Shown here in pieces: positions 12,284 to 23,655 of a stretch of DNA of 64,000 nucleotides. The position numbers and the translations under genes were made by a program. A model generated the notes under the pieces. That model was given only the letters and a program-made list of their open reading frames with translations. It did not search any database and was not told the origin of the DNA. Every line of letters begins with the position of its first letter. The first letter of the stretch is position 1. The stretch is from positions 62,001 through 126,000 of the forward strand of contig NZ_JAQUVZ010000003.1 in assembly GCF_028693135.1 (NCBI RefSeq). The letters run 5' to 3'. The stretch is from Methanosarcina sp. (GTDB taxonomy: Archaea > Halobacteriota > Methanosarcinia > Methanosarcinales > Methanosarcinaceae).

Positions 12284-12988
12284 GGGCTAAACGGACATGT
12301 GAATGGTCAGAGTGCAGGGAATTGACTAATTAAAATATTTCGTCTAATATAATAATTTAAATTTTTTTCCTGGAAAACAAGCATAAAACAAGCATACTTA
12401 TAATGAAAAATCTGTAATTTATATAGTTTATAAATAGAAAGTGTTATTCGTATTTTCATTCATATTCGCAGGCTTTAAAGCTTTATATTAATTTTTATTA
12501 TGCCTTTTGCCCTTCATTTTTCCTGAACTGTCTTACTTTTCCCTTATTTGCAGAAAAGAGGGATAAAAGCTTTATTCTACCGGTACACTTACAAATTTAT
12601 AACCTATAATTTAAATTTATAAGTTGACCCCTTTATTCCTACGGGATTCTTCCAGTTTTTCAAGCACTATTTAATGGTAAGTATTGTTAATTCTGTTGAT
12701 TTTATATATTTTATGAATATATTTTTATTTATACTCTTAAGCAATTAAAATTCAGTCTGTTAGCCTTCAAATAGGAATTAGCCGCCAGGCTAGTTTCTAA
12801 AAATAATTGCTATGAGTATAATCTTGATGTTGGGGGTTGATAGAGAGTTTGACTGAAGTTGTATACACCATTAGAAAGTTAATCAAATTTCAAAAAAACT
12901 TCATTCTTTTCAAATAATGCACCGAATATACAAGAAAAATGTCTAAACTAAATAAAGAAGAACACATTAACATCTGGAGGAAAATATA

Positions 12989-13069
12989 ATGGGATACTTT
13001 AGCTTTTATTACAAAAACGTAATATGCTTTTATCAGGAAACAATTTTCAAAATCAAGTTCTGCTTCTGA
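12989..13069 (+). CDS. 26-aa aromatic-rich peptide with two Cys
   Basis: ATG at 12989 follows GGAGG (12976-12980) with 8-nt spacing; TGA at 13067. The peptide starts MGYFSFYYKNVICFYQ and ends KIKFCF: about ten aromatic residues, two Cys and basic residues. It matches the 37-aa peptide at 15312 in length of the shared part, aromatic/Cys pattern and ribosome-binding-site spacing. No family recognised. It could be a secreted or membrane-active peptide, a metal binder or a leader peptide. Too short for coding statistics; support comes from conservation between the two loci. Confidence 0.55.
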   Translation: MGYFSFYYKNVICFYQETIFKIKFCF

Positions 13070-13121
13070 TAACTCTTTAAGCAGATTGATAATAACCATT
13101 TAAACTGATAAAAAATTGTTT

Positions 13122-13192
13122 CCATAGCCATCTTTTCGAGATATAATGGAGACATTCTCTAAATTCGTTTTATCTTGAATTGATGGCTATTG
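13122..13192 (+). ncRNA. Covarying hairpin downstream of the small ORF (locus 1)
   Basis: ATAGCCATC (13124-13132) pairs with GATGGCTAT (13182-13190). After a 2x2 internal loop, TTCGAGATA (13135-13143) pairs with TATCTTGAA (13171-13179) with one G-U pair. The equivalent stem at locus 2 has ATAGTCATC/GATGACTAT, a compensatory C-G to U-A change, and an A-U for the G-U. Covariation argues for a selected RNA structure: a 3' UTR element, a terminator, or the end of a small RNA. Confidence 0.6.
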
Positions 13193-13218
13193 ATCCTTAC
13201 TTTTTTATGATTTAGCAG

Positions 13219-13524
13219 CTACAGATTCTTTTTCAGGGCTCCCAATGTGATTATCTGGGTAATCTGGGTATACACTGTAGCTTGAACCGTATTCTCTTCA
13301 AAATAAACGGTAAATTTTCCAGCAAGGCGACACTTAAACGTTACATTCATGAAGTTTGTAACTTGAATAGGTCGTATGGGTGTGATTCTATGGGTGTGAT
13401 TCTATGGGTGTGATTCTATGGGTGTGATTCTATGGGTGTGATTCTATGGGTGTGATTCTATGGGTGTGATTCTATGGGTGTGATTCTATGGGTGTGATTC
13501 TATGGGTGTGATTCCTCCACTCAT
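13219..13524 (-). pseudogene. Small ORF split by a 14-bp minisatellite
   Basis: On the minus strand, ATG at 13524 opens MSGGITPI, then a 14-bp unit repeats ten times, then the frame continues as RPIQVTNFMNVTFKCRLAGK and on to ITLGALKKNL before TAG at 13219. Nine extra units add 126 nt (42 codons), so the two ends share one frame, but every third unit reads TAG. With a single unit the gene would code an intact 59-aa, beta-rich protein. No family recognised and no clear ribosome-binding site. Either a gene silenced by repeat expansion or a chance frame; translation could instead begin at the internal Met after QVTNF. Confidence 0.4.
13375..13514. repeat. 14-bp tandem repeat, 10 perfect copies
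   Basis: Ten identical copies of TATGGGTGTGATTC. Perfect identity indicates recent expansion by slippage or unequal crossing-over. The unit is not a multiple of three, so single-unit changes would shift the frame of the overlapping minus-strand ORF. Confidence 0.97.
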
Positions 13525-13704
13525 AAAATTAATTAAATTTCACTCAAATTCGTGGAATTCATATTTCGATCCCGAAGAGGATACTTTGAACCTTTATTTT
13601 CCGTTTTTCGTCCTGTTTTTCCAGATTTAATCTATAACTCAATCAAAACTCACGGGCACGATCTAATATCAATTTCTTAACTATATTTCCGTTTATATTA
13701 TACC

Positions 13705-14450
13705 TAATGGATATTAATAGGTGGTTCCTACTTAATCGGTTGGTATTATTCAGAATATCCTGAGATGAAATCTTTTTTCTCTTCTGCGCCTTATAGGGTT
13801 GAAACCGTCTCGCCTGCCCGCAAAAAAATAACAGGCAAATTCCTGCTGGTATTGAGAAAAAACGAGAATTATAGTGAAATGCCTTCCTGGTTCGAAGAAT
13901 ACTTCCCTTGACCCCTTCCTTTGACCCCGAAAACCGCTTTTTAATTCACAGGTAATATCGGACGTATCCGCCAGCTTGCCTGGCGGCCCTTCAAAAAAAG
14001 AAGAAAAAAGAAGAAATATAATAAGAGAAGGAAAAAATAAAGAGGCTGAAATCGCCAGTAAAAATCAATAAAAACAGACATGGAAAAGAGTATTTTTCAG
14101 GTATATTTTTATCCTGTTCGGACGACATCCCCCTACTTTTTACTTCACTTTTTACTCACTTTTTACTTCAATTTTAATTTATAAATTTATTTATGGTCTT
14201 TTTCGTTCTCTTTTTTGTCTGAAAGCCGCTCTCCTGCATCGAGCGTGACAAAAATGACACAATACGGCAAATAAGGTTGCACGGGCTATAAATATTTAAG
14301 TCGTCCTCTTGAGCGCAGCGAAAAGGACCGCGTACTCCCGAGGCGCAATTCGGGCGAGGCGCAATTCGGGCAGCGAAAAGAACCGCGGGCTCCCTAATCG
14401 CAATTCGGTTTTTTCAAAAATATCAACCATATAACAGTGGACGACCTAAT
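13705..14450 (+). repeat. Dispersed repeat, copy B (~740 bp)
   Basis: Collinear with the reverse complement of 19725-20500. Shared blocks in order: TTAATCGGTTGGTATTATTC (or close), GAAACCRTCTC, CCCTTGACCCC, CCGCCAGCTTGCCTGGCGGC, AAGCCGCTCTCCTGC with TCGAGCGTGACA, GTCCTCTTGAGCGCAGCG with AAAAGGACCGCG, and AATATCAACC near the end. No conserved ORF is seen. It looks like an old non-coding element or decayed insertion that moved as a unit. Confidence 0.8.
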
Positions 14451-14818
14451 AATGTCTTATGGATACAATATGAAATCACGTTCAGTAGCACATAATATGA
14501 GGAGAGGCTTTATCCATAGTCTAGTTTTTTAGAACCGAATCTGGATTTATCGGTAAGTAATTCATTTATCTGCCGACTGAAAATATATCCAAACAGGAAA
14601 CTCTAATTATCCGCGGTAATTGTCGGACAGTCTCTTTAGTGGTGGGATACAGCCTTTCAACTTTTTCAGAAACGTTTCTAACATATGGATAAATTTACTT
14701 GCCGATTTGCCCAGTATCATTCCTTAAAGGCGGGATGAACATTTAAACTACCGCCGTATTGAGAAAACTTGTGGCATTTTTGTGTACTTCTGCGGAAGTT
14801 GGGATTAAATACTAAATA
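14451..14818. other. No recognisable gene
   Basis: Nothing with coding character, ribosome-binding sites or repeats was found between repeat copy B and the 63-bp tandem duplication. Confidence 0.5.
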
Positions 14819-14945
14819 TCCTGCACTATTTAGAGTTTTTAAGAATTATAACTTATAAGTTAAGAAAAAAAGCAAACATATTCCTGCACGATTTAGAGTT
14901 TTTAAGAATTATAACTTATAAGTTAAGAAAAAAAGCAAACATATA
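14819..14945. repeat. 63-bp tandem duplication
   Basis: Two copies with period 63 differ at about one base (CTGCACTATTTAG versus CTGCACGATTTAG), followed by identical AATTATAACTTATAAG and AAAGCAAACATA. The duplication lies at the upstream edge of small-peptide locus 2, so it may double a promoter-proximal element. Confidence 0.9.
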
Positions 14946-15311
14946 ATTTCAGCCGGATATTTGTCAGGATTTTCAAAGACTATTAAATGATTCGAATCAT
15001 TAATTCTATCAATTTTATATAATTTCATATTATTATTTAATTTATACTTTCTGGCAATTAAATAACATCTGCTCCTCTCCAAGTGAAATCAGTATCAAGA
15101 AACGTTTCAAAAATTAATTGCCGTGAGTATAATACTTTGGGGGTTGATAAAGGGTTTAACCTGAAATGTACACATCATTAGAAGGAAATGCACCTAATGC
15201 TTGAAAAGTACACACCATTAGAAGAAGATGCGCCTAATTTTAAAGGGTTCATATTCTCCAATGTATAAAAGCAAACGTAATAAGAATAAACTAAGAATGG
15301 AGGAACATATA

Positions 15312-15425
15312 ATGTGTGGATGTTTTACTTTCTTTAACTTCAACTATAGAATTTGCTATATGAAGATTTATTACAAGATAGTTTGTAGTCATGGTCATGG
15401 TCGTGGCTGTGGCTGTGGCTGCTGA
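15312..15425 (+). CDS. 37-aa aromatic- and Cys-rich peptide with His-Gly-Cys tail
   Basis: ATG at 15312 follows GGAGG (15299-15303) with 8-nt spacing, exactly as in locus 1, which decides this start over an in-frame ATG at 15228. The first part (MCGCFTFFNFNYRICYMK, then IYYKIVC) is aromatic and Cys-rich like the 26-aa peptide. The end, SHGHGRGCGCGC, has two His and three alternating Cys, suiting metal binding. Eight Cys in 37 residues. No family recognised. Candidate metal-binding, redox or secreted peptide. Confidence 0.65.
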   Translation: MCGCFTFFNFNYRICYMKIYYKIVCSHGHGRGCGCGC

Positions 15426-15478
15426 TAATGATAACTATTGAGCCTGAAATAACTACTGAACCTTAAAAGAAACAGAAT

Positions 15479-15549
15479 CCATAGTCATCTCTTCAAGGTG
15501 TAAAGGACAACTTATGAGAATTCGTCCTTTTTTTGAATTGATGACTATT
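15479..15549 (+). ncRNA. Covarying hairpin downstream of the small ORF (locus 2)
   Basis: ATAGTCATC (15481-15489) pairs with GATGACTAT (15540-15548), TTCAA (15492-15496) with TTGAA (15533-15537), and AAAGGAC (15502-15508) with GTCCTTT (15524-15530): 21 pairs in three helices. It starts 54 nt after the peptide stop, the same spacing class as locus 1. The right arm passes through a T-run, so terminator function is possible. Confidence 0.65.
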
Positions 15550-15705
15550 ATCTTTATTATTTTTGAAAATCAGTTTTCATGTCCAATGGAACTATTTCTT
15601 GGACCAGATGGTATTTTTCCCACACTATTCATTTTTTCTTCATTCCGGCACTTCCGGGCTTATTATGGGTAATCTGAATAAAGTGGATAATATTACCGGA
15701 TAATA

Positions 15706-17967: not shown

Positions 17968-19296
17968 ATGCAAAGACCCGAACTTCTCCCTCTGGTTCTT
18001 GACCACAAAACCTTCTTCCAGAGCCCCTTTGATATAATCCCACGTAACATCCCAGTCCCCCCCTGTCTGGATGGACATGAGATCAATTTGATCTATGGCC
18101 CACTCCATGCAGGCAAGACGTCCTTCCTGAAGCAGGTCGCAAGCCTTCTGCAGGGTACAAAGGTTTACATTAATTTTGAAGACAGCAGGTTTAAAGAATT
18201 AGAACCCGAAGATTTTCAGGAAATTGAGAAAATTGCGGCTGAAGTTTACATAAAAGAGAATGAAAATGAAGAAATACCTGATGAAGACCCGGATGCAGAA
18301 GGAGCTGTCCACTATTTCCTTGATGAGATTCATAATGTCCCCGGCTGGGAGAACTGGGTTGACAGGCTTAACAGAGAAGGAGCAGGAGTTTTTATAACCT
18401 CTTCTTCCACAAGTCTCCTGAGTCCGGACGTTTCTTCACTCTTTGCAGACAGGACCAGGGTTCTCAAACTTTTGCCATTTTCCTTTAAAGAATATCTAAC
18501 TCTGAGAAAGCTCAGGGTCCCAAGGCCTAACTTACTCACACCTTCCCGATGCGATGAAATGCTGTGCCTTTTTCTACATTATTTTGATAACGGAGGCTTT
18601 CCCGGCGTAATAAAAAATGGAAATTCCATGCTCTCCCGGAAGTATTTTGAGGAAACTCTGCAGACAGAGGTTATTGCCAGGCACGATATTCAGGACGCTG
18701 AAGGGCTGAAGAGACTTGCAGTTTTTCTCATCTCGAACATGGCATCGGAATACTCAATTGATACCCTGAAAAAAGTGAGTGGGATCAATAACGAGGATAT
18801 TATCCGCGACTACCTTGACTATCTGGAAGAAGCTTTTTTGCTGTACCGGACCCCTATGTTTAACAACGTATCCGAAAACGGAAAAGAAAAAGATGCCCCA
18901 TGTAAAGTTTACGCCGGAGATACGGGTTTCTTCAAGACGGTATATCCCAATTATCCGGACAGCCTGGGATTAAGATTTGAAAACCTTGTGTTTCTTGAAC
19001 TGCTCAGGCAGGGCAAGCAGGTCTCATACTTCCGGGACAGGAAAGAATGTGATTTTATTATAACCGAAAAAGATAGCCAGGCTGTCACGGCTGCGGTTCA
19101 GGTCTCAGTCTACTTCGGAAGCCCGGCAGCAAGGGAACGGGAGGTCCTCGGGCTTATGGCAGCGATGGAAGAATACGGGCTTAATGAGGGGCTTATCCTT
19201 ACCCTGGACGATGAAGAAGTCATGGAGATAGCAGACAGGGATGGGGAAAAGAGAAAAATAATCGTTAACTCGGTATGGAAGTGGATGCTGGAATAA
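17968..19296 (+). CDS. AAA (AAA_14) ATPase with DUF4143
   Basis: 442 aa. Walker A YGPLHAGKTSFLKQ at residues ~47-60; Walker B YFLDEIHNVPGWENW at ~112-126; sensor-like FITSSSTSLLS at ~145. The C-terminal half matches DUF4143: a winged-helix part (MASEYSIDTLKKVSGINNED) followed by a PD-(D/E)XK-like core (FRDRKECDFII, ~357-367, then AAVQVS). Members are widespread, horizontally mobile NTPases of unknown cellular role. The gene stands alone and is followed by a 17-bp minisatellite. Confidence 0.88.
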   Translation: MQRPELLPLVLDHKTFFQSPFDIIPRNIPVPPCLDGHEINLIYGPLHAGKTSFLKQVASLLQGTKVYINFEDSRFKELEPEDFQEIEKIAAEVYIKENENEEIPDEDPDAEGAVHYFLDEIHNVPGWENWVDRLNREGAGVFITSSSTSLLSPDVSSLFADRTRVLKLLPFSFKEYLTLRKLRVPRPNLLTPSRCDEMLCLFLHYFDNGGFPGVIKNGNSMLSRKYFEETLQTEVIARHDIQDAEGLKRLAVFLISNMASEYSIDTLKKVSGINNEDIIRDYLDYLEEAFLLYRTPMFNNVSENGKEKDAPCKVYAGDTGFFKTVYPNYPDSLGLRFENLVFLELLRQGKQVSYFRDRKECDFIITEKDSQAVTAAVQVSVYFGSPAAREREVLGLMAAMEEYGLNEGLILTLDDEEVMEIADRDGEKRKIIVNSVWKWMLE

Positions 19297-22251: not shown

Positions 22252-23655
22252 TCAGGCAATCTGTGCCCTGAAAGTTTCGCAGGAGTTGATCTTTATATCG
22301 AGCAGTTTTTCGATGTTCATCTTTGCAGCAATGCCCTTTGCAGCTCCTGGCACGGAGGTGATGACACCAATGTCAAGTTCTTCACGGAGTTCTCTCATGA
22401 TATGTTCGTCTGAGAGGTCCATTGTATCGACATTGAGCTTTTTTGCCACGTACTCTTTTGCCTCCCCGATTCGCATGTTCTTTGAGAACTCCATCCTTGC
22501 AACGAGATCGCCTGCAGCCCTGATCCCGGTCATCCCCGACGCCATGATGTGGGAAATCGGCATACCCAGCGGGTCGCCGACCCCGATCTATATGCCGTCT
22601 ACGCCGGCAATCTCAACCATTGCCTTGCTTGCTCTTGTAACCGCATCTACCGGGGGAGTTTCAAGCATGGGGATTCCGCCTACACCCATACCCATGTTCA
22701 CGTGACAGGGAATTGAAGACGCTTCTACTGCCGCCTTTATGAATGTGACAGCCCGTGCCAGGTTCCAGGCTGAGGTCTTGCTTGTGTTGGTGTTGACCAC
22801 GGGGCCAAAGACGTTTGCTCCGGCTGTTGCTGCCAGAGGTGCCTGTTCATGCGGCCAGAGTCCGGCAAGACGCACTCCATCGTACTCCAGTTCCCCGTGC
22901 ATCCCGAGCACCATTTCTCCTGCCATGCCCATTTCGATATACATTTCCGGGTACAGGGCTCTCAGGGTTTTTACGGCGTTGAGTGTGCCGTACATATCCG
23001 CATCTCCGGCTGCTGCAGTTGTATCAAAGTTGACCCCGTCTGCCCCTGAGGCAAAGAGCTTCTGCATAACCCAAACCGTATCTCTTGTCAGGTGTTCGGC
23101 TGCATGTTCCATGGAATCTTTTGCCTTATCGATTTTGAAGGCCTTCATGAGGTCCCCGGGGTTTTCGAAGGGTCCGTCAGGAGTATAATAAAGCCCCATG
23201 TTCGGCATTGCCCCATAAAAAAGCGGGATGATCATGTTCTGCTGGCAGACTTCCATTGCCTGGCACTCGTTTGCGACTACGGGCTTGACCGGCTTGAAAC
23301 TGTAATCGATGTGTCCGAGTTCCATTGTGTCAGCTCCAAAAGCCCTCTCATGCGTCATGCAGCTGACAAGCCGACTGGAAGGAATTCCAACTCCACTGTT
23401 GCCCTGGTCCCCATCAAGCCTGATTGTACCTATATCGTGGGTAACAGGCACTTCCATACCCTGCTCCACACTTACGGCTTTTCCGGGCATCATCAGGATT
23501 TCTGCAAGCCTGTCGATTTCATCAGCACTGAGATCGGGGATTTCTCCAAGGTCTGCAGCGTTTCCAGAGCCGGCTTCGATCTCGCTTAGAATTTTTTCTC
23601 TGGTAAGGAAGACACGTTTCCCATCTCCCATCCTCAGAGCATATTCAGTTACCAT
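22252..23655 (-). CDS. mtbB: Dimethylamine:corrinoid methyltransferase (pyrrolysine-containing)
   Basis: Reads as 467 aa when the in-frame TAG at 22588-22590 is decoded as pyrrolysine (residue 356), exactly the position and length known for MtbB. Before it: [20 protein letters not shown], then MEIAGVDGI; after it: [20 protein letters not shown]. The enzyme moves a methyl group from dimethylamine to the Co(I) corrinoid of MtbC; pyrrolysine in the TIM-barrel site binds and orients the amine. ATG behind GGAGG. Middle gene of mtbC-mtbB-permease, a substrate-induced operon type. Plain translation would split it into two ORFs of 355 and ~103 aa. Confidence 0.97.
22588..22590 (-). other. In-frame UAG read as pyrrolysine
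   Basis: CTA on the plus strand (TAG in mtbB). Coding continues in the same frame for 111 codons with family-conserved sequence on both sides. Decoding needs PylS/tRNA-Pyl, which lie outside the window. Confidence 0.95.

Follow-up and report, generated by a model that had tools for sequence, protein, structure and literature searches.

A Methanosarcina-wide family of putative micro-operons carrying tiny open reading frames between RNA hairpins

The window analysed here is a 64,000-nucleotide (nt) stretch of a Methanosarcina sp. genome (contig NZ_JAQUVZ010000003.1, positions 62,001 to 126,000, forward strand), in which two small plus-strand units, cassettes 1 and 2, lie ~1.77 kb apart (2.31 kb from start to start). 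A preliminary description of the window had pointed out two blocks, each with a promoter-like stretch, a leader, a GGAGG at 8-nt spacing, an open reading frame (ORF) of 26 or 37 amino acids (aa) and a hairpin; all of these elements lie where it had placed them, and the hairpin arms of the two units differ compensatorily, as it had reported. As an account of the layout it was incomplete, missing a 5' leader hairpin, the promoter that both units share, with its long upstream element, and the frequent tandem arrangement of ORFs, which fall into many classes. Comparison with other genomes indicates that the two units are members of a micro-operon family that spans Methanosarcina and is larger than first noted. 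A short mRNA would open with a stem-loop and carry tiny ORFs, each with a strong ribosome-binding site of its own. All of the support comes from sequence comparison, from which we infer that the tiny ORFs are translated.

Cassette 1 begins with a promoter block at 12652-12751 (nhmmer E 5.6e-18 against a 27-sequence profile, and alignment), comprising an upstream element at ~12655-12694, a TATA box TTTTATATAT at 12700-12709 and a predicted start at ~12730. Where the RNA is predicted to begin, a leader hairpin (12730-12820; fold z -5.33; covariation across 19 leaders) pairs TATACTC (12730-12736) with GAGTATA (12814-12820) and AGCAATTA (12740-12747) with TAATTGCT (12804-12811). It is followed by a G-rich leader motif, TTGGGGGTTGATAGAGAGTTT, at 12830-12850, whose alignment columns are near-invariant, and by a Shine-Dalgarno GGAGG at 12976-12980, 8 nt before the ATG of a 26-aa, aromatic-rich class I ORF, MGYFSFYYKNVICFYQETIFKIKFCF (12989-13069), recognized by family alignment and a coding test. 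The 3' hairpin occupies 13121-13196, with outer arms ATAGCCATC (13124-13132) and GATGGCTAT (13182-13190), covariation across 27 hairpins and a fold of -30.3 kcal/mol (z -7.45). A relaxed Rfam scan gave a sub-threshold match to the C/D snoRNA RF00476 at 13027-13111 (30.9 bits, gathering 45), covering the last part of the ORF and the spacer in front of this hairpin, which is probably a chance match.

Cassette 2 repeats the plan: a promoter block at 14965-15062 (nhmmer E 1.8e-16) with TATA box TTTTATATAA at 15013-15022 and predicted start at ~15043; a covarying leader hairpin at 15043-15131 (fold z -3.46) that pairs TATACTT (15043-15049) with GAGTATA (15125-15131) and GGCAATTA (15053-15060) with TAATTGCC (15115-15122); the aligned G-rich motif TTGGGGGTTGATAAAGGGTTT at 15137-15157; and GGAGG at 15299-15303, again 8 nt before the ATG. 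The 37-aa ORF, MCGCFTFFNFNYRICYMKIYYKIVCSHGHGRGCGCGC (15312-15425), has an aromatic start and a Gly/Cys/His-rich tail, and its orthologue in another region (L041) reads MCGCGCFNFFNFNYRICYMKVYYRIFSCGCGC. The 3' hairpin at 15479-15552, with outer arms ATAGTCATC (15481-15489) and GATGACTAT (15540-15548), covaries in the same set of 27 and folds at -23.4 kcal/mol (z -4.06). The z-scores of the four window hairpins argue that they are not chance folds. Repeats lie in and around the units as well. A 14-base-pair (bp) unit, TATGGGTGTGATTC, is iterated ten times head-to-tail between the cassettes (13375-13514); a 63-bp direct duplication, 98% identical, sits just 5' of cassette 2 (14819-14944), each copy bearing the perfect 14-nt palindrome TAACTTATAAGTTA; and the cassette 2 leader holds two copies of a 37-nt repeat (15162-15238) with motif GTACACACCATTAGAAG and variants, a similar motif occurring once in cassette 1.

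How widespread is this arrangement? Two DNA searches of 31 Methanosarcina genomes gave matches in 14 and 12, and the same layout, with promoter and hairpin both kept, was present in further Methanosarcina genomes. With a sequence model of the promoter, matches came from 30 of the 31 genomes and, outside Methanosarcina, from one further genus only. The covariance model built from 27 of the 3' hairpins matched 27 of the 31, its weakest matches being insertion-sequence-like ends, and had no match in other genera in the sample of the family searched. The loci examined hold 80 ORF-bearing cassettes with 144 tiny ORFs, in regions chosen by promoter or hairpin match and from related species that are not independent. 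An ORF with a Shine-Dalgarno site follows 80 of 96 promoters, and 26 of these 80 cassettes carry two to eight ORFs. Within 700 nt an ORF was found downstream of 79 of the 96 promoters, upstream of 16, antisense for one and in shuffled sequence for two; the excess over the antisense and shuffled counts argues that the tiny ORFs are not chance, and some of the 16 upstream matches must be genuine ORFs of a preceding cassette. The Shine-Dalgarno site is GGAGG in 137 of the 144 ORFs and GGAGT in the rest, with an 8-nt spacer in 116. Two settings recur below: locus 1, where the two window units lie, and locus 2 (L127-L132, L136), with peptides of classes IV, I and V. Both are present (L049, L132) in a genome that we take to be M. 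mazei (G009) because its PylRS matches the solved PylRS structures, which are of the M. mazei enzyme. In that genome they lie at about 2.136-2.138 Mb (L049) and 0.4327-0.4348 Mb (L132), positions that differ in other strains. Cassettes are also carried by G001, presumably M. acetivorans.

Across 38 independent ORF pairs, 177.5 synonymous changes were observed against 110.6 expected (P<0.001), and pairwise ratios of nonsynonymous to synonymous rates (dN/dS) range from 0.15 to 0.55. The excess holds within class I (P 0.009), class V (P 0.022) and classes VI/VII, III and the Gly-Trp part of II (each <0.001), which argues that the tiny ORFs are coding and under selection at the protein level. The peptides fall into several unrelated-looking classes: aromatic ones, Gly/Cys/Trp/Arg-rich ones of 25-81 aa, and other hydrophobic ones of 20-41 aa. 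Class I (MGYFxLYYxxxxxYYExTKLYIxAWW, 25-28 aa) is hydrophobic and ~32% aromatic. The Gly/Cys/Trp/Arg peptides of class II begin MCCG.. or MWFGNCGWGGCGG.., and class III (MGGFPFFKKF..GCGCGG..CCITAVRACKIKGGGWW, 60-81 aa) has a conserved block, CCITAVRACKIK. Classes IV, V, VI and VII are represented by MIFGLDLGILFAIVFEFDLGLLFGW, MFFYLNYIKITFCLQVEKLRIMYISGYGVLNR, MYIENFVILLSQKFKVIFNDWF and MIPIIEWQDFTINITLLLIALSEKFNIIFN, respectively. Clustering joined class II with class III and grouped the 37-aa window peptide with class I. In the Gly-rich sets (47 distinct peptides) Gly averages 35% and Cys 13%, the mean net charge is +3.3 and GCGCG recurs. One region (L042) has four class I ORFs behind one promoter, three of them for the same peptide, and one terminal hairpin; repetition of ORFs between single RNA ends suggests that peptide dosage is selected. 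Inspection of the tiny peptides revealed no N-terminal signal peptide, profiles from Pfam, NCBIfam and PADLOC matched none of the classes, and a PDB search with class I returned chance-level matches only (E 0.47).

The RNA ends are constrained as well. In the 3' hairpin, 94.4% of cells in the 27 sequences are paired and 15 cells changed on both sides, a level reached by none of 500 shuffles. In the 19 leader hairpins, 90.9% of cells are paired, a value that drops to 30-47% when the alignment is slid by one to three columns; of 500 shuffles, 5 reached the double-sided changes and 2 the covariation score. The near-invariant G-rich motif follows this hairpin. The earlier proposal of selection on peptide and RNA alike is supported by covariation in the 3' hairpin and by the synonymous excess in the ORFs, and more homologues with compensatory changes do exist. 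The 3' hairpin was found in 46 cassettes, at a median of 57 nt past the last stop, including most at locus 1. The locus 2 cassettes and most class III cassettes keep their ORFs without a recognizable copy; at locus 2 a different, terminator-like hairpin follows the last tandem ORF (AAAGTTGCCTGCGTTTCAGGCAACTTTATCTTT in M. acetivorans, as taken here). Neither cassette hairpin reaches an Rfam gathering score, and the sole Rfam match in the window is PYLIS_2, the pyrrolysine insertion sequence of mtbB, elsewhere at 22491-22590 on the minus strand (101.8 bits). In leaders of the Gly/Cys classes, a candidate pseudoknot can be seen by eye, in which the TTGGGGG motif would pair with the leader loop CTCTCCAA. 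A hairpin like the 3' one is also borne by insertion-sequence-like repeat ends, GTAACTATTCAGCCTGG..CAATAGCCAT.. (L052-L056, L058; G000:C89:9697-9802), and a common origin is possible. The weak, dispersed matches L052-L056 and L058 were considered as extra cassettes and rejected, being such ends without promoter or ORF; they are left out of the cassette counts.

The promoter extends over ~100 bp. In the alignment an upstream element, TTTTCAARGACTATTTAATGNTAAGNA....TTATTCT (also written TTTTCAARGACTATTTAATGNTAAG..TTATTCT), precedes the TATA box TTTTATATAA, and in some copies the latter half of the element resembles an inverted repeat (AGAAT-N5-ATTCT). Counting ~26 nt from the TATA box, as is usual in archaea, puts the predicted transcription start at TATACTC, the sequence that forms the 5' side of the leader hairpin. 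One promoter type precedes unrelated peptide classes, and it also stands upstream of alpha/beta-hydrolase genes in M. acetivorans (as taken here) and in G007, where the promoter matches are hydrolase promoters only. Both in the second genus and in G023, the gene behind this promoter encodes a 497-aa protein that appears to have a signal peptide and is matched by no Pfam family; the leaders of these genes, too, fold into a terminal hairpin (fold z -4.3 and -3.8). Since it precedes hydrolase and secreted-protein genes too (L134, L135, L138, L139, L155, L156 and L159 are the regions with such non-cassette genes), the promoter appears to mark a regulon. A conserved promoter-like element on the opposite strand lies just 5' of class III cassettes in four regions (L103 5953-5981, L107 3322-3350, L110 5632-5660, L145 6613-6641), where a divergent or antisense transcript is possible.

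Locus 1 lies in many species between ileS/mptE and a gene for an ATPase with AAA_14 and DUF4143 domains, at 17968-19293 on the plus strand of the window, which matches the PADLOC candidate defence model PDC-S01 (5e-77). In at least seven genomes, locus 2 is divergent from an adjoining MacB/FtsX-type ATP-binding cassette (ABC) operon, and in several its other flank is a DEAD-box helicase gene.

What might such cassettes do? The alignments point to a conserved promoter, hairpins, Shine-Dalgarno sites and coding ORFs, and the architecture with translated peptides is very probable. To rationalize these features we propose the following model. A single transcription factor would bind the conserved upstream element and turn on the cassettes jointly with some hydrolase genes. 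The two stem-loops would act as terminators or shield the ends of the mRNA, and a tandem array of one ORF would raise peptide output. The peptides, made in bulk and lacking a signal peptide, might then insert in membranes or self-assemble at the cell envelope, a mode of action known in bacteria from phenol-soluble modulins and leaderless bacteriocins. As a whole, function included, this account of micro-operons for peptides with a physical action is tentative and somewhat short of an even chance. Bulk production, on demand, of leaderless peptides that are membrane-active or self-assembling is speculative, and we would sooner expect this idea to fail than to hold. The weakest step is the physical action at the membrane or envelope, for which composition is the main guide and which is weakly supported.

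Several observations weigh against this model. Class IV, taken alone, has no significant synonymous excess (P 0.71). Structure models are uninformative: AlphaFold gives class V as a single helix with a predicted local distance difference test (pLDDT) score of 79 and class III as disordered (38). A reading of the peptides as beta-hairpins was rejected, as the alternation moments of class I are no better than shuffled and class V is modelled as a helix. The neighbourhood of locus 1 has no conserved exporter or immunity gene, and the ABC operon beside locus 2, though it favours the model, is weak evidence because such operons are common in Methanosarcina.

Other explanations were considered. If RNA were the main product, the transcripts would be structured small RNAs with two hairpins and secondary ORFs, akin to the dual-function RNAs, such as sRNA154, reported in M. 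mazei (PMC11456600), and the two covarying hairpins that flank the ORFs would fit. However, ORFs are amplified in tandem while hairpins stay single, selection acts at the protein level, and at locus 2 and in most class III cassettes the ORFs are kept where the 3' hairpin is not recognizable; we consider an RNA product unlikely. A type I-like toxin, a small hydrophobic peptide whose translation is restrained by RNA, would explain tandem intergenic copies of hydrophobic peptides, and overexpression of some other small ORFs of M. mazei is reported to slow growth (PMC11456600). The opposite-direction promoter-like elements of L103, L107, L110 and L145 also speak for it, but the other loci yielded no conserved antisense promoter or RNA, the Shine-Dalgarno site is perfect and apparently free, and the Gly/Cys/Arg-rich classes do not resemble membrane toxins, which makes this reading improbable.

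Those same classes, with their abundant Cys and Gly, the recurring GCGCG and the conserved class III block, could instead be metallopeptides or precursors of modified peptides; microcin B17, for one, has a Gly/Cys core. However, the loci are not flanked by any modifying enzyme, and the aromatic classes behind the same promoter would be left unexplained, and we judge this idea to have little chance of being right. Finally, the likeness of the 3' hairpin to the end of the repeat that starts GTAACTATTCAGCCTGG might suggest that the hairpins and the cassettes represent miniature inverted-repeat elements devoid of cellular function. Conserved synteny, with a fixed position between mptE/ileS and the ATPase gene in many species, disfavours a mobile element, as do the constraint on promoter, Shine-Dalgarno site and ORF and the absence of promoter and ORF from the dispersed repeats; it is very improbable.

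Under the model of co-regulated peptide micro-operons, the family adds a large hidden gene set to a model archaeal genus, together with a shared promoter, which marks a regulon, and a new design of RNA ends. Its presence in M. mazei and M. acetivorans (as taken here) places it where genetics and public transcript data exist. Should the peptides act on membranes or neighbours, this would be a chemical or structural behaviour new for methanogens. In its fullest form the idea becomes a co-regulated arsenal shared by the whole genus: dozens of leaderless peptides that diverge fast and act at or outside the envelope, a novel regulator and a novel mRNA design with paired hairpins, the first system of its kind in methanogens. 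That form is doubtful.

To our knowledge the cassette family is undescribed. A literature search for the peptide strings returned nothing, and the initial remark that no described Methanosarcina system with this layout is known agrees with the literature search. The closest comparison within the genus is the ribosome profiling (Ribo-seq) catalogue of M. mazei, with 314 unannotated small ORFs, which likewise includes intergenic unannotated ORFs of 30 aa or fewer, some on structured small RNAs (PMC11456600). In contrast to our cassettes, its main text presents no family marked by tandem copies, paired hairpins or a promoter in common; single peptides may be in the 314-ORF list (PMC11456600). With respect to type I toxin-antitoxin systems, the trait of small hydrophobic peptides is true for several classes and false for the Gly/Cys/Arg-rich ones, to which many members belong, and with regard to an antisense or trans RNA that blocks the toxin mRNA, only the opposite-strand promoter-like elements of L103, L107, L110 and L145 were seen; the likeness lies in small hydrophobic peptides and tandem intergenic copies.

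In the phenol-soluble modulin operons of Staphylococcus, a single mRNA encodes several tandem leaderless peptides, 20-45 aa long. There is no sequence relation to them, and phenol-soluble modulins are amphipathic helices with an N-formyl start, without Gly/Cys-rich partners or shared terminal hairpins. They need an ABC exporter; no exporter or immunity gene lies at locus 1, and an ABC operon adjoins locus 2. Leaderless bacteriocins such as aureocin A70, of which we know no archaeal member, also have tandem small ORFs lacking a leader peptide, whereas cassette locus 1 is devoid of an immunity or dedicated transporter gene. The trait common to both bacterial systems, tandem small ORFs without a signal peptide, is present in the Methanosarcina cassettes (two to eight ORFs in 26 of 80). 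We file the cassettes under no known family and claim membership in none, although they may act in the manner of phenol-soluble modulins or leaderless bacteriocins.

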